DNA from: a virus
IMG/VR virus record: IMGVR_UViG_3300010939_000030
Span: 1-33,006 of that record
DNA: 33,006 bases
Direction: 5' to 3' (one strand)
Below are positions 1-30,224 of this stretch, one piece after another. Numbering within the stretch: the first letter of the stretch is position 1; every line of letters starts with the position of its first letter. A program made the translations under genes and the position numbers. The notes under the pieces are model-generated. The model was not told the origin of the DNA. It saw only the letters and a program-made list of their open reading frames with translations, and did not search any database.

Positions 1-2079
1 GCTATAACTCGGTACAAAATAACTGCTGTCAGCGCTGAGACATTCGAAGAGTCTTTGGGTGGACTGGAAACAAACTCGATATCAATAACTGCTGTTACGA
101 AAGCGGACCCAGCCGTTGTGACTGCTACCTCACATGGCTTTAACAACGGAGACATTGTTCATATAACTGGCATCGTTGGAATGGAAGAACTGAACGACCG
201 AGAGTTTGAGGTAGCAAACAACGCCGCGGATACGTTTGAATTGGTTGGCGAAGATTCAACGAATTACGGAACTTGGGTTTCCGGCGGGACAGTGAATCAA
301 GTCTCAGCCGTAATAGAATCCTCCGCAACGCCGACGGCAGCAAATCCTAATGTTATAACTTGGACTGCTTCGACTGGGGCTGATGAATACAATATCTATA
401 AAGAAATAAACGGCATTTACGGTTTGATAGGGGTTGCTGGAACAACCACTTTCAATGATACCGGGATTACGGCAGATACTAACGAAACCCCGCCAAAGCC
501 ACGCAACCCTTTTAATGCGACTGGGGATTACCCATCAGCCGTTGGTATCTATCAAGGTAGACAGGTCTACGGTAACCAGGACAATGACGTTGAAAAAAAC
601 TTCATGTCACGATCTGGAGATAGAAAAAATTTAACGATCCGATCTCCGTTGCAAAATGACGACTCTGTTTCATTCCCACTGGCCGGTAAAAGCGTGAACG
701 AGATTCGTCATTATCTCGATCTTGGGACATTGATTGTGTTCACTTCTGGCGGAGAATGGCAGGTGCGAGGCGGAATATCTGGCGTCATAACGCCAGGAGA
801 AATTAACCCTGTGCAGCATGGCTACGATGGGTCAAGTACACTTCCGCCTCTTATTGTTGGCAACACAGCGCTATTCGTACAGGCGCGCGGGTCTATTGTG
901 AGAGATTTGTCTTATGAGTTCGAGAGCGACGGTTATACGGGACGAGATTTGACAATATTCTCAGCGCATTTAGTAGACGATTTTACGATCCGAGATTGGG
1001 CTTATCAAAAGATTCCGCATTCAATCGCTTGGATGGCAAGAAGCGATGGGACTTTAATTGGCCTCACATATATCCGAGATCAGCAAATGCTTGCGTGGCA
1101 TAGGCATGATTTTGAAGGAGGCACAGTTGAACAGGTTGTCAGCGTACCAGAAGGAACCAAAGATGCTTTATACCTCCAGATAAAACGGACAATCAATGGT
1201 AAGACCAAAAGATACATCGAAAGAATGTATCAGAGGAGCTTTACCGATGTGATTGATGCCGTTCACATGGATAGCGCTGCAACTATTGATGGCCGGAATA
1301 CGGATACGACGCACACCATGCTTCTTTCCGGCGGGACGGACTGGGATTATGAAGAAACTCTTACGCTGACCTCCAGCACAGCATTCTTCGTTTCTGCTGA
1401 TACTGGGAATGTGATTCAGTTGACAGGAACAGACGACAGCGTGTACCGATTTACTATTGATGCTTTCACCAGCTCAACCGTGGTCACGGGAAAGGTCCAT
1501 AAGACTGTGACGGTCGCTTCAGGGCTTCGAACGACAGCGACTTCAACCTGGGCAAAAGCTATCGATGTTATAAGTGGTTTGTGGCATCTTGAAGGAAAGA
1601 GTGTGAGCGTGTTTGCTGATAGATTCGTTGTCGCTAATCCGAACAATGCTTCCTATACGAAGCTGACCGTGGCATCTGGAAAAATAACTCTGGACAAACC
1701 CTATGCGGTTGTCCATGTCGGTCTTCCGTACACTTGCGATTTAGAAACACTTGACATTGATTCTAATCAATCTGAGCCGCTGATGGACAAAAACCGACTG
1801 ACAAAAAATCTTACAATGTATGTTGAAGACACAAGGGGCCTATGGATCGGCGCTGAATCGCCTACGTCCGACAGCGATTATGAAAGCCAGCTTCACGAAT
1901 TGAAGCTTCGGGATGATGAAGATTATGAATCTCCGGTTTCATTAAAAACGGAGCCGTTAAAACAAAATATTAAGTCCGCTTGGAACAGGAATGGCAGAGT
2001 TTTTATCCGCCAGACCGATCCAATTCCATCGACTATTTTAGCGGTAGCTCCGTCCGGTTATTTACCTTTTAGGACTTAG
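1..2079 (+). CDS. Tail nozzle-like virion protein (T7 gp12/tail tubular B type), 5' end outside window
   Basis: The frame is open from base 1, so the gene starts upstream; the first TTG/ATG codons inside the window are not the true start. In order I see an E1_FCCH-like beta domain (about window residues 25-95, 'TSHGFNNGDIVHITG', 'NDREFEVANN'), a fibronectin-III-like segment ('VITWTASTGADEYNIYK'), then the long conserved core of podophage nozzle proteins with 'FTSGGEWQVRGG', 'VGNTALFVQARGSIVRDLSYE' and 'DGYTGRDLTIFSAHL'. That core is typical of proteins forming the distal tail tube that joins portal/adaptor to the outside. It is followed after 8 bases by the internal virion proteins, the usual T7-like order. 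Family assignment is by recalled motif resemblance, not by a search. Confidence 0.65.
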   Translation, partial: AITRYKITAVSAETFEESLGGLETNSISITAVTKADPAVVTATSHGFNNGDIVHITGIVGMEELNDREFEVANNAADTFELVGEDSTNYGTWVSGGTVNQVSAVIESSATPTAANPNVITWTASTGADEYNIYKEINGIYGLIGVAGTTTFNDTGITADTNETPPKPRNPFNATGDYPSAVGIYQGRQVYGNQDNDVEKNFMSRSGDRKNLTIRSPLQNDDSVSFPLAGKSVNEIRHYLDLGTLIVFTSGGEWQVRGGISGVITPGEINPVQHGYDGSSTLPPLIVGNTALFVQARGSIVRDLSYEFESDGYTGRDLTIFSAHLVDDFTIRDWAYQKIPHSIAWMARSDGTLIGLTYIRDQQMLAWHRHDFEGGTVEQVVSVPEGTKDALYLQIKRTINGKTKRYIERMYQRSFTDVIDAVHMDSAATIDGRNTDTTHTMLLSGGTDWDYEETLTLTSSTAFFVSADTGNVIQLTGTDDSVYRFTIDAFTSSTVVTGKVHKTVTVASGLRTTATSTWAKAIDVISGLWHLEGKSVSVFADRFVVANPNNASYTKLTVASGKITLDKPYAVVHVGLPYTCDLETLDIDSNQSEPLMDKNRLTKNLTMYVEDTRGLWIGAESPTSDSDYESQLHELKLRDDEDYESPVSLKTEPLKQNIKSAWNRNGRVFIRQTDPIPSTILAVAPSGYLPFRT

Positions 2080-20238: not shown

Positions 20239-20596
20239 AACTAATCTAGTAAAAAAGATTCAGATCGCATTTTCTAGGCTTGGCGCGCGAGTATTTCGGA
20301 ATAACATTGGCATGTTAGAAGATAAGCGCGGCATGAAGGTTCGATACGGTCTGTGTACCGGATCGAGCGATCTGATAGGTTGGACTCCAGTCGTTATTAC
20401 ACAGGCCATGGTAGGCTCCCGCGTTGCGGTCTTTACATCAGTTGAAGCCAAAAGCGATAAGGGCAAACTCCGTCCGGAGCAAATGGCTTGGCTGACTGTT
20501 ATCGAAGCTGCTGGCGGTATTGCAATGCTTGTCCGCTCTGAATCAGAAGCAACCATCATGCTTTCTAAAATGCTGAAGGCGTTTAAAGGTGGGTAA
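20228..20596 (+). CDS. VRR-NUC domain nuclease
   Basis: 122 residues from ATG 20228; the longer TTG-started frame lacks a ribosome site. The pattern 'SETNLVKKIQIAFSRLGARV', 'GLCTGSSDLIGWTPV', 'VFTSVEAKSDKGKLRPEQMA' and 'WLTVIEAAGGIAMLV' is the stand-alone phage VRR-NUC fold: Glu-x-Lys in VEAK with an upstream Asp in SSDLIG. These are PD-(D/E)XK enzymes that cut Holliday junctions or DNA ends. It overlaps the primase start by 8 bases, in keeping with a role in replication or resolution. Confidence 0.85.
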   Translation: MASETNLVKKIQIAFSRLGARVFRNNIGMLEDKRGMKVRYGLCTGSSDLIGWTPVVITQAMVGSRVAVFTSVEAKSDKGKLRPEQMAWLTVIEAAGGIAMLVRSESEATIMLSKMLKAFKGG

Positions 20597-23500
20597 ATTG
20601 GCTGAGTTCGACTTCCAAGGATTAGCGCAAAGGCTTCTATCAGATGCTAGGAATTATGTTCCGTCCTGGTTGCCTGGTGGCCGGATGCATGGGGCTGAGT
20701 ATTGTGTTGGAGATTTACACGGAAAACCTGGGGATTCCCTTCGAGTAAATCTCAATACGGGCAAATGGGCTGACTTCGCATCAAATGACAAGGGCGGGGA
20801 TTTAATATCGCTTTACGCAGCAATCCAAGGCATGAAGCAGATTGATGCCGCTAAAAAGTTGGCTGACATGATTGGATTTATTACTCAGCAGCCAGAGCTG
20901 ATGAGAAAGCCGAAGCCGACACTCCCGCCGGTCGCTGTTGTTAAGCCAAAGATTCCTCCTACCGGCACGCCGAAACCTGAAATGTTTCACGGAAAGATGG
21001 GTGCGCCGGTCGCTTCATGGTGTTACCTATCGTCGATTGGCCGTCCGGTGTTCTATGTCGCCAGGTACGAGACTAATGATGGCAAGCAACTGCTGCCGTG
21101 GTCTTGGATAGATGGCAAATGGCAATGCAAGGGATGGCCAGCGCCACGGCCCCTCTATGGACTGGACGAGCTGGCCAGGAGGCCGAACGATCCTGTGATG
21201 GTATGTTATTCTCCCGACACGGAATTGCTTACTCCAAAAGGATGGAAGCCTATTTCTGAATGTGCTGAATCTGACATGGTTGCGCAATACGACAAAGAGA
21301 CAACTGATGTTAGCTTTGTCATTCCTTCCGATTGGCAAAAATTTCAATTTGACGGCCAATTAATAAATATAAAATCGGATTGGTGCGACATGGCAGTCAC
21401 GCCAGATCACAGAATTCTATTGAGAAAAAAGCGTAGAAATAAAATTTGGGGATTCCCTCAAGCAACGGCTGCAAATGATTTTATCTATTGTGACCAATTA
21501 CCAAATTCTGGAATTTCGATTGGAGCACAAGGGCCGACTGTTTCACAAGCACGATTGATAGCAGCTTTTCAAGCAGATGGCTCTTTTCCTGTCGGGAAAA
21601 GGACAATCGCCTCGTTTAATTTGAAAAAAACTCGCAAGAAGGAACGGTTAATATCCTTGCTTGAACACTTAAATATTCCCTACCAATTAAAGGTCTATGA
21701 GTCAATTCCTAAGTGGACAACAATTCAAATCAGCATATCCACTATAAGATGGTTAACCACTTACATGCCGAATAAAAAATTTAACTGGTCTATGTTAAAT
21801 TGGAACTTTTCCTCAAGAAAGGCTCTTATTGAAGAGTTGGGTTTTTGGGACGGCGATTTTGTTGGAAATGCTGGAATTCGTTATTTTACTTCCGATGCAA
21901 TTAATGCGCAGGTCATTAGTGCAATGACTGCTATTTCTGGTTATGGTTGTATATTAAGGCATGATGATCGACCGGCAAGAAAACAGGCTGTTCGTGCCTA
22001 TGTATTAAATTTATCCAGAAAGGGTTGGAGGGGTTTCTCTAAAAATCCTAATCCGAAAAGGCTGCTTCAATACAAAGGAAATGTTTATTGTTGCACAGTC
22101 CCTACAGGATTTTTAGTAACGAGAAGAAATGGTAAGAATGTAATATCAGGAAATTGCGAGGGCGAGAAGGCAACGGAGGCAGCCCGTAAGATAGCCGGAG
22201 CAACCTATGTAGTGGTTACATGGCCGAACGGCTCTAAGGCCATAAACAAGGCTAATTGGAAGCCCGTCTATGGCCGGAAGGTTCTACTATGGCCAGACGC
22301 GGATGGTCCTGGACGAGCTGCCATGCATGAGGTAGCAAAGCAGCTAGAGGCGCATTGCGATGAGATTAAAATTCTTAACGTCAAGGATCAGGACGGCTGG
22401 GACGCCGCTGACGCGCTGGAAGAGAACTGGAATTACGGACACTTGAAGGGTTGGGCCAAGGGCATTGTCGTATCGCATCAGGTAACTCCGCCGCCCGTTG
22501 CACAGCCTTCGTATACTGCACAGCAGAATGTGCAAATTAATATCTTTACCGAGGACTGTGAAGAGCTGGACGGCGCTATCACGGCAATCCATGAGCGCCT
22601 TGGGATTCCGGTTTCGAAACAGGGCATGCCTGTCTGCAATGTCGATACGATATCACGCGTGCTTGAAGGAATCGCAGCGTTTAATGATTTCGTTTGGTTT
22701 GATGAATTTCATCAGAGATATTACACAACCTTGGATAAGAAGGTTCGGGAATGGAGCAAGGTTGACTCAATGAATTTGCTTTTGTTTTTACAGCGGAAGC
22801 TAGGGTTGCGCCACATTGGTCTTGAGATGGTGAATCATGCCATGATGATTTACGCTCATCAGAGGATTAAGAATTCTCCGAAAGACTGGTTCGAGAAGCT
22901 GGAGTGGGACGGAACCGCGCGGCTGCACTCATTCTTTAAGGATTGTTTCGGGGCTGAATATAATGATTACTCACAGGCCGTCGGCAAGAATTTCTGGGTT
23001 GGCATGATAGCCCGTATCTACCAGCCAGGTTGCCAGCTTGATAACATGGTCGTGCTTGAGGGCGCCCAAGGGATCGGGAAGTCAAAGTCCATGCGGCTTA
23101 TAGGTGGAAACTGGTATACCGAAGCGCATGAGTCTGTAACTAGCAAAGATTTCTTTATGGCGCTGCATGGAAAGCTGATCGTGGAGATAGCAGAGCTGGA
23201 CTCATTCAATCGCGCTGAAGTGACTCGAATCAAACAGGTTATCACATGCCCGACAGACAGGTATCGCGCGCCTTATGACGACAAGACTCAGGATCATCCG
23301 CGCAGGTCGGTCTTTGTCGGGACAACAAACGAGCATCATTGGCAGCGGGATCATACTGGCGCCAGGAGATTCTGGCCGATAGCGTGTCAGCGCATCAACC
23401 TTGGCATCTTGACGCAAAACAGGAAGCAATATTTTGCAGAGGCCATCATTCTATATAAGAAGGGTGAAAACTGGTATCAGACTCCTGAAGAAAGTACGCT

Positions 23501-23825
23501 TAGGGAACAAGATTTTCGCCGCCAATCTGACGCATGGGAGGATATTATTCGGGAATATCTGGCGGGTGGTACCAAGGGCTTCCCCATATTTGAATGCACG
23601 ATCCAAGATGTTGCGACTAGCGCACTGAGTATCGATATTGCACGGCTTGAAGTTCATGTCCAACGCCGGATCGGAAATGTTTTAAGGACTATAGGATGGG
23701 AGAAAAAGAGGGTTAACCGTGGGGATCGAATCATAAGGTTATGGCAACCGATGGAGGCGAAAGATGAAGCGAATAATACGCTATTTCCAGCAGAAGAAAA
23801 GAGAGAGCCAGGTCAAGAAGGCTGA
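20589..23825 (+). CDS. TOPRIM primase with VapE-like helicase domain, interrupted by an intein
   Basis: 1078 residues as translated, 761 after splicing. Residues 1-205 are a primase N-terminus ('GRMHGAEYCVGDLHGKPGDS', 'GGDLISLYAAIQG'). The TOPRIM domain starts right after the intein with CEGEKATEA (523-531) and holds the metal site WPDADGPG (DAD 570-572). The C-terminal half is of the virulence-associated E type: Walker A EGAQGIGKS (824-832), 'LHGKLIVEIAELDSFNRAE', 'VFVGTTNEHHWQRDHTGARR'. It would make primers and unwind DNA at the fork for host polymerase. Start is GTG at 20589 or TTG at 20598; both are possible. It overlaps the deformylase gene by 62 bases. Confidence 0.85.
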   Translation: MGKLAEFDFQGLAQRLLSDARNYVPSWLPGGRMHGAEYCVGDLHGKPGDSLRVNLNTGKWADFASNDKGGDLISLYAAIQGMKQIDAAKKLADMIGFITQQPELMRKPKPTLPPVAVVKPKIPPTGTPKPEMFHGKMGAPVASWCYLSSIGRPVFYVARYETNDGKQLLPWSWIDGKWQCKGWPAPRPLYGLDELARRPNDPVMVCYSPDTELLTPKGWKPISECAESDMVAQYDKETTDVSFVIPSDWQKFQFDGQLINIKSDWCDMAVTPDHRILLRKKRRNKIWGFPQATAANDFIYCDQLPNSGISIGAQGPTVSQARLIAAFQADGSFPVGKRTIASFNLKKTRKKERLISLLEHLNIPYQLKVYESIPKWTTIQISISTIRWLTTYMPNKKFNWSMLNWNFSSRKALIEELGFWDGDFVGNAGIRYFTSDAINAQVISAMTAISGYGCILRHDDRPARKQAVRAYVLNLSRKGWRGFSKNPNPKRLLQYKGNVYCCTVPTGFLVTRRNGKNVISGNCEGEKATEAARKIAGATYVVVTWPNGSKAINKANWKPVYGRKVLLWPDADGPGRAAMHEVAKQLEAHCDEIKILNVKDQDGWDAADALEENWNYGHLKGWAKGIVVSHQVTPPPVAQPSYTAQQNVQINIFTEDCEELDGAITAIHERLGIPVSKQGMPVCNVDTISRVLEGIAAFNDFVWFDEFHQRYYTTLDKKVREWSKVDSMNLLLFLQRKLGLRHIGLEMVNHAMMIYAHQRIKNSPKDWFEKLEWDGTARLHSFFKDCFGAEYNDYSQAVGKNFWVGMIARIYQPGCQLDNMVVLEGAQGIGKSKSMRLIGGNWYTEAHESVTSKDFFMALHGKLIVEIAELDSFNRAEVTRIKQVITCPTDRYRAPYDDKTQDHPRRSVFVGTTNEHHWQRDHTGARRFWPIACQRINLGILTQNRKQYFAEAIILYKKGENWYQTPEESTLREQDFRRQSDAWEDIIREYLAGGTKGFPIFECTIQDVATSALSIDIARLEVHVQRRIGNVLRTIGWEKKRVNRGDRIIRLWQPMEAKDEANNTLFPAEEKREPGQEG
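21204..22154 (+). mobile_element. Intein with LAGLIDADG homing endonuclease
   Basis: 317 residues (206-522 of the precursor). It begins with Cys (CYSPDTELLTPKGW, block A), has VTPDHRIL as block B (TPDH 271-274), two LAGLIDADG motifs (LIAAFQADGS at 323 and LIEELGFWDGD at 413), and ends VPTGFLVTRRNGKNVISGN followed by Cys+1. The penultimate residue is Gly instead of the usual His. Removing it joins PVMV to CEGEK, exactly restoring the TOPRIM catalytic motif. Two lines I counted inside are 32-38% G+C against about 60% in one nearby host line, which fits recent arrival. Confidence 0.93.
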
Positions 23826-27926: not shown

Positions 27927-28048
27927 GTGTCGCGCTTCTTGTGTGTGAACATGCTAGGCCAGCGCATAAGCGCTGACAGCACGCACGGGGCGCAATGGGT
28001 GCGCGTGTGGTCTGTCTTTGGGCCTCGGCATCGTTTGCAATGGGTCAT
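27923..28048 (-). CDS. 41-residue zinc microprotein
   Basis: Coupled to the genes on both sides. Two CxxC pairs, CKRC at 4-7 and CAPC at 19-22, form a ribbon (MTHCKRCRGPKTDHTRTHCA), followed by a basic helix ending KKRDT. Role unknown. Confidence 0.6.
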   Translation of the reverse strand: MTHCKRCRGPKTDHTRTHCAPCVLSALMRWPSMFTHKKRDT

Positions 28049-28239
28049 CATTCGAACCTTAGCAAAACTCCGCCCAGCAATTTTCCAGACGGTTCCTTCA
28101 GCTCGTACTTAATCCCCGCCTGAAGGTGCATATCGTAAATGCCTTTTGCGGTCGATTCTAAAAGCTTCGAGAGCTTGCGTCCGTTCTTCTGCTCGAATCG
28201 GATTGAGTCTTCAATGTGTAAAACCACGTTCAGTTTCAT
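28048..28239 (-). CDS. 63-residue protein, unknown
   Basis: ATG with AAAGGATACAGC upstream, directly after hairpin element 1. The sequence (MKLNVVLHIEDSIRFEQKNG, LSKLLESTAKGIYDMHLQAG) mixes strands and a helix and could be a small phage regulator or inhibitor. The stop TGA shares a base with the next ATG. No family recognised. Confidence 0.65.
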   Translation of the reverse strand: MKLNVVLHIEDSIRFEQKNGRKLSKLLESTAKGIYDMHLQAGIKYELKEPSGKLLGGVLLRFE

Positions 28240-28253
28240 GCTGTATCCTTTCT

Positions 28254-28302
28254 GCCCCGACTTTGGACGGGGCTTGTTGTTTAACGCCGGATCGCTCCGG
28301 CG
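28254..28302 (-). ncRNA. Two-hairpin intergenic RNA element, copy 1
   Basis: In the leftward transcript: hairpin A (7 bp, CGCCGGA/TCCGGCG, 28302-28285) with a GCGA loop of the GNRA type, an 11-base linker TTAAACAACAA, then hairpin B (6 bp, GCCCCG/CGGGGC, 28273-28254) with an 8-base loop. AAAGGA and ATG of the next gene follow. Copy 2 at 28592-28638 has the same geometry with different stem sequences. No T-run, so it is not a plain terminator. Confidence 0.75.
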
Positions 28303-28306
28303 CTCA

Positions 28307-28570
28307 TCACGCCGTTACTGGCTCTTGCTCTGGCGCCATAAGTTTTGCTGACGCCTTCCTGAGTTTGGCGACTGCCTTCTCTAATTCTGGCAGGTGTTCA
28401 ATGGCAAGCGTAACCCCGCGCTTAGTCGGACGGTATACAGTCTCACCTTCCATCTGAAACCATACGCGGAAGTCGATAAAAACTTTCCCTTTATATTTGC
28501 GAAGCTGAACTCTTATTTCTTCGCTCTCGTTTCTGGTGATGCTGTGAACTAAATAATTTTGCTCTGGCAT
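28307..28570 (-). CDS. PC4/p15-like single-strand DNA-binding coactivator
   Basis: 87 residues; ATG at 28570 with GAAAGGGG upstream, just after hairpin element 2. 'EIRVQLRKYKGKVFIDFRVW' and 'YRPTKRGVTLAIEHLPELEK' follow the beta-sheet-plus-helix layout of bacterial and phage PC4 proteins. They bind single-stranded or melted DNA and assist transcription or replication. The Lys/Ala/Glu-rich C-terminus is probably flexible. Close to the complete family length. Confidence 0.8.
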   Translation of the reverse strand: MPEQNYLVHSITRNESEEIRVQLRKYKGKVFIDFRVWFQMEGETVYRPTKRGVTLAIEHLPELEKAVAKLRKASAKLMAPEQEPVTA

Positions 28571-28591
28571 GATATGACCCCTTTCGGTTGT

Positions 28592-28638
28592 GCGCGGGCT
28601 TGTGACCGCGCTTGCTGTTTAACGCGCCAGAAGGCGCG
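28592..28638 (-). ncRNA. Two-hairpin intergenic RNA element, copy 2
   Basis: In the leftward transcript: hairpin A (6 bp, CGCGCC/GGCGCG, 28638-28623) with a TTCT loop, an 11-base linker TTAAACAGCAA, then hairpin B (6 bp, GCGCGG/CCGCGC, 28611-28592) with an 8-base loop. The linker differs from copy 1 at one base, while the stems differ but still pair. The PC4 gene begins about 20 bases downstream. Confidence 0.75.
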
Positions 28639-28642
28639 CCAC

Positions 28643-29128
28643 TCACGCTTTTGAGTGTCTATCAATGACCGCATGCCCGCCCTGATAAAGCTCAGGGTAT
28701 ACGGGGATTTCCTCATCGAGTCCATCCCCTGAAGCCGGAACGCTTAGGACATGCTCGCGCTTGAAATTCGGGTTAAGTTGTCCGGCGTCAATCCACGAGC
28801 GGATAGCGTCAGGCGTCGCCACGAAGTTATAGCAAGCGTTCCCGCGCATTGTCCTGTTAAGTTCCGTATCGCATTTTATGGGCTGATCCCATCCCTCGAA
28901 AATAGCCGATTCTGTGTCCTTGAGAGGTGCCGAGGAGTACGCCCGGCTTCTGAGCGGAAAAATGTATTGCGTTCGTTTCCCGCGTTCTTTGAAAACCGGA
29001 TTGCCGTCGATGTGAATCCTCGTAATAAAGATTTCCCGCTTACTCGTCATAGCCATCATTGACCCGATGGCGTAAACGGTGTACTCATTACCTGCTCGCA
29101 TAATGCTGTCTATCGTCTGTGTTTCCAT
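28643..29128 (-). CDS. 161-residue protein, unknown
   Basis: ATG 2 bases after the lysozyme stop, AGAGG upstream. The body has 'YTVYAIGSMMAMTSKREIFI', 'TRIHIDGNPVFKERGKRTQY' and 'SSAPLKDTESAIFEGWDQPI', with a Pro/Asp-rich C-terminus. It looks like a complete soluble alpha/beta protein but I recognise no family. It sits between the lysozyme gene and hairpin element 2. Confidence 0.65.
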   Translation of the reverse strand: METQTIDSIMRAGNEYTVYAIGSMMAMTSKREIFITRIHIDGNPVFKERGKRTQYIFPLRSRAYSSAPLKDTESAIFEGWDQPIKCDTELNRTMRGNACYNFVATPDAIRSWIDAGQLNPNFKREHVLSVPASGDGLDEEIPVYPELYQGGHAVIDRHSKA

Positions 29129-29130
29129 TT

Positions 29131-29637
29131 TTAACCTCTCTTGTTGATGATGATTTTTAATCTCTGATCCGAATCAATTATCGAGATAAGGCGCTCCGGC
29201 CTTGTCCCTGTCTGGTGATACCATTTACTAGAGCGCATTTCCCGAATGATGCCTTGCGTGCCGCGCTCCTGTAATGCTACGCGCAAGCGCTTAAATTTAA
29301 AAAGCCGGTTCCCTAAATTGTAGGCCATGTCAACGATTGCTATTTTCTCTCCTGCTGTCATTTGAACCCACGCGGACGCGCTGAACCTGACCGCGCGCGC
29401 TGTGGCCTCGTCGTACTTCAGGAGGAAAACCTCTCGGGCGTGATCCCGCGTCATTTTATCGCATGAATGATAAGCACAATTAAACCCGTATCCTATGGTC
29501 TGAATCCCTCGCGTGTCGGTGTACGCTGTAGCGCTGAACCCTTCAAGCTCTTGGGTAAGCGCTCTCCCATGCGCTTCCCACGCGGACGCATCCGGCGCGC
29601 ACAGCATGAGAAACGCAAGGGCTAGAGCTGTTTTCAC
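29131..29637 (-). CDS. Exported GH24 lysozyme (endolysin)
   Basis: 168 residues from GTG 29637, which overlaps the methyltransferase stop (GTGA) and has GGGGAG upstream; an ATG 18 bases earlier is less likely. A Sec signal or signal-anchor precedes the enzyme (MKTALALAFLMLCAPDASA). The T4-type catalytic triad has exact spacing: Glu32, Asp41, Thr47 in 'ELEGFSATAYTDTRGIQTIG'. 'AGEKIAIVDMAYNLGNRLFK' completes the fold. It cuts the glycan strand of peptidoglycan. Export by Sec would make it independent of a large-hole holin, as in signal-arrest-release endolysins. Confidence 0.88.
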   Translation of the reverse strand: MKTALALAFLMLCAPDASAWEAHGRALTQELEGFSATAYTDTRGIQTIGYGFNCAYHSCDKMTRDHAREVFLLKYDEATARAVRFSASAWVQMTAGEKIAIVDMAYNLGNRLFKFKRLRVALQERGTQGIIREMRSSKWYHQTGTRPERLISIIDSDQRLKIIINKRG

Positions 29638-30224
29638 AATTTCGTTTCTCCCCATTGTCCGGCCATTGCGTCAGCTATTCCCTGATATGTTCTGCTTCGT
29701 ATCTTCCAGCGGTCTTTTGAGGGGGGCAGACTGTTTTGACCGCCTGGCGTTTGATTCGCCCACCTGGCGGGGTTATGCGTTATAAGTATTTCAGTGGCCA
29801 TGAGTGGAGGCAATCCTTTAAGCCAAAGCCCTGTCTTCTTGCTCTCCGGGTGTCCAAATTCGTATGGCTGTATATACTGATCCGGTTTTCGATACACTGT
29901 TGACATGATGCCAACAGGGTTTTCTATCGCGATACGGTCAATGGGCGCGTCAGCCAGGAGCATAAAAAAATTAATGCCTTGTTGCTGGCGTCCATCTGCT
30001 TTCTTTTCCCTCCAAAACGTTGCACCCGACACGCTTAGATGTGTGCATGGCGGGTGAGCGATCATTAAATCCCAGCCTTGTTTTAAGACTGGCGCTATGT
30101 CCCCTTTAATGTGCGGTCCTGGGTTTTCAGTCTCAAGTGAGTCACAACTTACGGCTTCGTGTCCCTTTTTAATAAAAGCATCGCGGACAATTCCGCTGAA
30201 CTCGCAAGCGATCAAGACTCTCAT
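29634..30224 (-). CDS. C5-cytosine methyltransferase-like protein
   Basis: 196 residues; ATG at 30224 with no ribosome site. 'MRVLIACEFSGIVRDAFIKK' matches SAM motif I, 'MIAHPPCTHLSVSG' holds the catalytic Pro-Cys (Cys60), and 'IAIENPVGIM' is motif VI (ENP at 101-103 in place of ENV). The length is well under a typical enzyme, with a very small target-recognition part, as seen in many phage versions. Likely function: methylating phage DNA against host restriction. First gene of the leftward lysis operon. Confidence 0.75.
   Translation of the reverse strand: MRVLIACEFSGIVRDAFIKKGHEAVSCDSLETENPGPHIKGDIAPVLKQGWDLMIAHPPCTHLSVSGATFWREKKADGRQQQGINFFMLLADAPIDRIAIENPVGIMSTVYRKPDQYIQPYEFGHPESKKTGLWLKGLPPLMATEILITHNPARWANQTPGGQNSLPPSKDRWKIRSRTYQGIADAMAGQWGETKL

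Follow-up and report, generated by a model that had tools for sequence, protein, structure and literature searches.

Two gene junctions of a phage contig carry the same arrangement of two hairpins in front of a start codon. The question raised by this locus is what kind of RNA the duplicated element represents and what it does for the phage. The whole stretch of viral DNA that was analysed (IMG/VR record IMGVR_UViG_3300010939_000030, 33,006 nucleotides) is called the window. A preliminary description of the window had pointed out the duplication and had listed three options for its role: RNA processing, translation control or protein binding.

Layout of the duplicated element

The genes of the leftward run follow each other in the order DNA methylase, endolysin, 161-aa gene, PC4-like gene and 63-aa gene (Table 1), in a phage that encodes podovirus-type tail and internal virion proteins. 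As the preliminary description stated, the two elements flank the PC4-like gene. On the minus strand each of them consists of hairpin A with a four-base loop, an 11-base linker (TTAAACAGCAA and TTAAACAACAA, consensus TTAAACARCAA) and hairpin B with an eight-base loop (GCGCGG-TCACAAGC-CCGCGC and GCCCCG-TCCAAAGT-CGGGGC), followed by a ribosome site and an ATG at 28570 (copy 1) or 28239 (copy 2). This layout had been described exactly, to the base. Minimum-energy folds of the isolated strands contained both hairpins (P1 and P4 in the nomenclature used below), with folding z-scores of -2.6 and -3.4.

Table 1. Position of the ribozymes, their parts and the neighbouring genes in the window
Feature	Position	Strand	Description
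Twister-P5 ribozyme copy 1	28594..28647	(-)	Junction of 161-aa gene and PC4-like gene; RF02684, 53.4 bits, model 1-58 complete
Twister-P5 ribozyme copy 2	28256..28311	(-)	Junction of PC4-like gene and 63-aa gene; RF02684, 47.2 bits, model 1-58 complete
Predicted cleavage site copy 1, U28621 / A28620	28620..28621	(-)	Conserved U-A step in Rfam alignment
Predicted cleavage site copy 2, U28283 / A28282	28282..28283	(-)	Conserved U-A step in Rfam alignment
P1 hairpin copy 1 (hairpin A)	28622..28639	(-)	G.U + CGCGCC/GGCGCG, loop TTCT
P1 hairpin copy 2 (hairpin A)	28284..28303	(-)	G.U + CGCCGGA/TCCGGCG, loop GCGA
P4/L4 hairpin copy 1 (hairpin B)	28592..28611	(-)	GCGCGG/CCGCGC; loop with T1 (CAC) and T2 (GC) partners
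P4/L4 hairpin copy 2 (hairpin B)	28254..28273	(-)	GCCCCG/CGGGGC; loop with T1 (CCA) and T2 (GU) partners
UGA stop codon of 161-aa gene, within ribozyme copy 1	28643..28645	(-)	U in P2; GA is the invariant L1 GA
UGA stop codon of PC4-like gene, within ribozyme copy 2	28307..28309	(-)	Same offset (+2) as in copy 1
161-aa gene, upstream of copy 1	28643..29128	(-)	No Pfam or PHROG family; L191 homologue lies between hammerheads
PC4-like gene, 87 aa, between both ribozymes	28307..28570	(-)	PF02229, E 2.9e-11
63-aa gene, downstream of copy 2	28048..28239	(-)	No family
Endolysin (phage lysozyme) gene, upstream in the leftward gene run	29131..29655	(-)	PF00959, E 1.2e-13

Assignment to the type-P5 twister family

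In a comparison of the whole window with all 4227 Rfam families, only RF02684, the type-P5 twister ribozyme, matched. It did so twice, with E-values of 1.5e-8 for copy 1 and 5.5e-7 for copy 2. The curated gathering cut-off of this family is 37.6 bits, and both copies span model positions 1-58 of 58. No third twister copy was found in the record of the window, and no other Rfam family matched at these two sites. By these matches both elements are type-P5 twister self-cleaving ribozymes, a known and named class (Roth et al. 2014, as reviewed in PMC5408937), for which activity is predicted here. Thus the original observation was confirmed, whereas the identity of the RNA had been missed; the processing option stood, narrowed to predicted self-cleavage by a twister. 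The hairpins and the linker had been delimited correctly, but the element starts further 5', at 28647 and 28311, and takes in the upstream stop codons. The overlooked 5' strand, which crosses the stop codon, provides P2 and the GA of L1.

Counted from 28647, copy 1 is made up of P2 (CGU with ACA), L1 (GAGUG), P1, the U/AA cleavage step, L2 (GC), P4 and L4 (UCACAAGC). In copy 2, P2 is likewise CGU with ACA, L1 is GAUGA, L2 is AC and L4 is UCCAAAGU. P1 is formed by six G-C pairs and a basal G.U in copy 1 and by seven pairs and a G.U in copy 2, and P4 has six pairs in both. The L1 GA and the UAA are present in both window copies; the roles of the U-A cleavage site, of the active-site guanine and of the adenine 3' of the cleavage site are described in PMC5408937.

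P1, P4, the tertiary contact T2, the L1 GA, the U-AA and the circular permutation with closed P1 are common to the window copies and the type-P5 twister; P2 and, in copy 2, T1 correspond in part. The differences lie in P2, which is here the three-pair form without the fourth pair, in T1 of copy 2, and in the upstream stop codon placed inside the ribozyme. In P2 of both copies the U-A and G-C pairs beside L1 are formed, whereas the outermost position is a C.A mismatch, which is paired in the 42 other parsed copies. T1 is complete in copy 1 (G-C, U-A, G-C; GUG/CAC), while copy 2 has two of the three pairs (U-A, G-C, A.C); the third pair is intact in all 43 other parsed copies. The C.A in P2 and the A.C in T1 are weak points, and copy 2 may be a slow cutter.

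Two of the three T1 pairs differ on both sides between the copies. T2 is GC/GC (G-C, C-G) in copy 1 and AC/GU (A-U, C-G) in copy 2, a compensated change. The preliminary description was right that the linkers differ at one base; this difference, G to A, is not neutral but is one half of T2, answered by C to U in L4.

Relatives and covariation

Relatives were collected with a core pattern run over IMG/VR contigs, after which the Rfam model was applied to whole records. Thirteen other IMG/VR phage records had matches above the RF02684 cut-off; weaker copies included, they contain 44 sites, 38 of them above the cut-off. The cultured Tunturiibacter phage Tunturi_4 added four more twisters, all above the cut-off. 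A lack of further instances, or unpaired stems in related phages, had been named beforehand as evidence against a selected structure. The outcome was the opposite: 48 further instances, nearly all of them paired.

Forty-four copies from 14 phage records, including the two in the window, could be parsed, and two weak copies could not. The L1 GA, the L4 GU and the AA were invariant in 44 of 44. The three T1 pairs were formed in 44, 44 and 43 copies, the lone failure being one pair in copy 2 of the window, and T1 occurred as five fully paired types (GGG/CCC, GUG/CAC, UGG/CCA, GAG/CUC and GGA/UCC). T2 was found as AC/GU, GC/GC, GG/CC and CC/GG. All these counts lean toward pairing, since part of L4 is set by the seed pattern and the register of T2 could shift by one base in the scoring. 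The seed pattern left the P1, P2 and L1 columns free. Compensating changes in P1, P2 and P4 of the 44 parsed copies exceeded those in label shuffles, which ignore relatedness. This family-wide covariation supports the earlier claim of a selected RNA structure with covarying stems.

The two strong GC hairpins might also be transcription terminators, or chance hairpins in a GC-rich phage. We regard this as practically excluded: the covariation of the pseudoknots contradicts it, the Rfam E-values and the family-wide pattern speak against it, and the nine terminator-like matches in the region barely exceed the 7.3 found in shuffles. Moreover, the coding strand has no T-run, as had been noted when simple termination was judged unlikely; the terminator-like matches at these two places are on the other strand. 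On that plus strand the P4 hairpins (28254-28273 and 28592-28611) are flagged as terminator-like next to the T-rich complement of the linker, probably as a by-product.

Some peculiarities of the parsed copies deserve mention. A basal A.G in P1 was present in 9 of the 13 copies with a U-A middle T1 pair and in 0 of the others; a tertiary dependence between T1 and P1 is possible, as is shared ancestry. A second 3' half (TGTGGCAAGCCCGGTCACAAGCCC) directly trails two of the four twisters of G045 (L162, G045:C1:135-203 and 776-846, minus strand). The extra half could compete for the 5' half and act as an alternative-fold switch, or it could be a decayed duplicate.

Searches with the PC4-like, endolysin and primase/helicase-like proteins detected no close relatives of the window phage, and the region had no DNA-level relatives in the phage collection. 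The tail protein identified three relatives at 45-47%, all without twisters. The exact linker pattern gave no match, a broader pattern gave five new loci with no twister among them, and the strict twister pattern had no match in bacterial genome contigs. Two candidate carriers were rejected: the Vibrio phage match H44, in which the covariance model found no twister, and the human gut phage MT835475, whose score was below the cut-off.

Placement at the ends of genes

In 37 of 50 copies an ORF of 45 aa or more, taken from simple, uncurated ORF picks in the case of the IMG/VR records, had a stop codon that starts at -5 to +8 of the first base of the ribozyme. Random positions in the same stretches gave an expectation of 2.5, and the mirror arrangement on the other strand was seen for one copy. 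The offsets fall into several groups. The group at -4 to -1 has its stop codon next to the outer P2 strand or overlapping it. At +2, the offset of both window copies and also found in G036 and G078, the UGA takes its U from P2 and its GA from L1; at +7 (G018 and G065) the UGA is inside GAGUGA. Downstream, the usual distance from the ribozyme to an ATG with its ribosome site is 15-50 nt.

The largest array is that of G023: 9.4 kb with 15 twisters on the same strand, in which exactly one gene separates neighbouring copies in 10 of 14 intervals. Of the four Tunturi_4 twisters, two begin at the base that directly follows an annotated CDS (the ORF87/ORF86 and ORF79/ORF78 junctions). Within a phage, the copies resemble each other in local signatures (CGUGA in the window, GCAGAGGG in G023). 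The arrays are uneven. Several records have one copy only, and these fit poorly with division of a whole operon as the only role. In the window the 161-aa gene abuts the endolysin gene directly, therefore the gene run is only partly divided by twisters.

The fifteen-twister array is located on an 82.9-kb viral contig (L160, G023:C1:21418-30802), with a twister at most gene junctions. Many of its copies share UAGCAGAGGG; within this string the ribozyme core overlaps with a UAG stop codon.

Other ribozyme classes at equivalent junctions

In G057 a pistol, a type-II hammerhead and four twisters were found at gene junctions on one strand of one gene run. In G008 the stop of a gene is followed at the next base by a hammerhead in one place and by a twister in another. 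The gene run of G057 (L163, G057:C1:12500-19500, minus strand) has its pistol at 61.3 bits and its type-II hammerhead at 45 bits, and one of its type-P5 twisters is below the cut-off.

The 161-aa gene allowed a direct comparison. One homologue was found, in L191/G089 (49% identity, E 2e-50), and no further one in bacterial genome contigs, plasmids or phages. It is flanked by type-II hammerheads at 27 nt ahead of its start (44.7 bits) and at 8 nt past its stop (37.3 bits, near the cut-off of 37), both with the core motifs CUGAUGA, GAAA and GUC. The downstream junction of the 161-aa gene thus carries a twister in the window phage and a hammerhead in L191. Because the homologue has hammerheads at both ends, self-cleavage, rather than the twister fold or PC4 binding, appears to be the property that is kept. 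The exchange of ribozyme class at a shared junction is suggestive, as one gene pair that amounts to no statistical proof. L191 (L191:2443-3575) contains three type-II hammerhead copies within 1.1 kb, two flanking the 161-aa homologue and one of the three below the cut-off.

PC4 domains bind single-stranded nucleic acid, and the PC4-like gene sits between both copies. The element could on these grounds be a conserved structure without catalysis, bound by a protein such as the PC4-like protein or controlling translation. We consider this very improbable, as the catalytic residues and the pseudoknots are kept and unrelated ribozyme classes occupy equivalent positions. For translation control as the main role, it is also unfavourable that the ribosome site falls outside the ribozyme. 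A PC4 gene above the family cut-off was present in the window only and in 0 of the 13 other twister records, two of which gave weak sub-threshold matches. On this count, and with a hammerhead, which shares no fold with the twister, at the equivalent junction elsewhere, the earlier suggestion of a PC4-binding RNA was rejected as a general explanation.

Proposed role of junction cleavage

The stop-codon placement, the dense array and the hammerhead/twister exchange together point to cleavage at gene junctions as the selected property. The explanation that we favour, with a probability of about 0.8, is that type-P5 twisters cut the phage operon message co-transcriptionally into gene-sized mRNAs with hairpin-capped ends. 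The twister would fold during transcription by forming the P1 and P4 hairpins, the short P2 and the pseudoknots T1 and T2, and would then cut at the U-A step between P1 and P2. By the mechanism described in PMC5408937, this step would be cleaved by in-line attack to which the active-site guanine and the 3' adenine contribute. The predicted cuts are 22-24 nt past the upstream stop codon and 43-50 nt ahead of the next ATG; as they lie between the stop codon and the ribosome site that comes next, the coding sequence would stay whole. The upstream mRNA would end in the P1 hairpin with a 2',3'-cyclic phosphate, and the downstream mRNA would begin with 5'-OH AAACARCAAG followed by the P4 hairpin. 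The likely gain would be the conversion of a long transcript into gene-sized, end-protected mRNAs, stability and yield being uncoupled for each gene. What the sequences themselves show is the membership of the family, the covariation of stems and pseudoknots, the location on the coding strand between stop codon and ribosome site, the arrays and a second ribozyme class at the junctions of the same gene; activity in the cell, protection of the ends and a benefit to the phage are inferred.

Alternatively, the twisters could be active while the gain lies in turnover or timing, with exposed pieces decaying and expression near the lysis gene lowered or delayed. Cleavage would create fresh ends usable by nucleases, and the twister pair of the window is just downstream of the endolysin gene. 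On the other hand, the cut pieces would end and start in stable hairpins, 5'-OH ends of RNA are generally resistant to the 5' sensor of RNase E, and arrays elsewhere span genes of many kinds, such as the polymerase processivity factor and methyltransferase genes in the array of Tunturi_4. For these reasons we think this explanation unlikely.

A somewhat better case, though still a doubtful one, can be made for a modular cassette, in which a gene moves between phages together with a ribozyme that cuts it free of whichever transcript it has entered, serving the mobility of accessory genes and not the operon. The window and the 10 kb surrounding L191 have nothing in common except the 161-aa gene and its ribozyme junctions, and the local signatures shared by the copies of one phage suggest spread inside a genome. 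However, the ribozyme in L191 belongs to another class, hence gene and ribozyme are not one fixed moving unit, and an unsystematic look noticed no mobility genes or insertion signatures beside the ribozymes. The cassette idea is compatible with operon cutting rather than opposed to it.

Cutting of the operon message by ribozymes has a precedent in the prophage hammerhead clusters that flank single genes (PMC3088659). These are likewise located between phage operon genes, several per operon, and were likewise proposed to cut long transcripts into operon- or gene-length mRNAs. Perreault et al. (PMC3088659) showed in vitro that such clusters cleave fragments of native polycistronic RNA, and one set also cleaved in E. 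coli. With respect to several ribozymes on the coding strand between operon genes, which characterise these clusters, two were found in the window and up to 15 in its relatives. The twisters differ in belonging to another class, in reaching up to 15 copies and in the stop codon that abuts or overlaps them. That twister and hammerhead ribozymes are associated with phages and lie close to each other has been reported, with no known reason (PMC10085705, PMC6155905, PMC4604425), and the purpose of self-cleaving ribozymes in bacterial and phage genomes has been described as unknown or open (PMC10085705, PMC6155905). The hammerheads and twisters near Mu-like phage genes and near each other (PMC10085705) resemble the present case in the phage setting and in the proximity of mixed classes. 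Here, in contrast, the phage encodes podovirus-type tail and virion proteins, and the association is positional, with stop codon and ribosome site, and not by gene function.

The window copies are ordinary members of their class, and both the class and the operon-cutting idea are already known (PMC3088659). What may interest specialists is the positional rule at stop codons, the near-complete division of a 9.4-kb operon and the exchange of classes at the junctions of one gene. In a more speculative extension, which we hold to be improbable, twister-P5, hammerhead II and pistol ribozymes would be interchangeable punctuation of phage genes, with the upstream stop codon set within their catalytic core or next to it, and a ribosome completing the upstream gene would hold the ribozyme open so that translation gates cleavage. 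Junction cleavage is made testable by Tunturi_4, a cultured phage with four copies on Tunturiibacter empetritectus.

A separate observation concerns positions 20589-23825 of the window, which encode a 1078-aa protein with primase- and VapE-like helicase parts. Pfam gave no intein domain in this protein. Its residues from about 205 to 524 match PHROG families named PhoH-like, ribonucleotide reductase and thymidylate synthase over certain stretches, and these matches suggest an intein.
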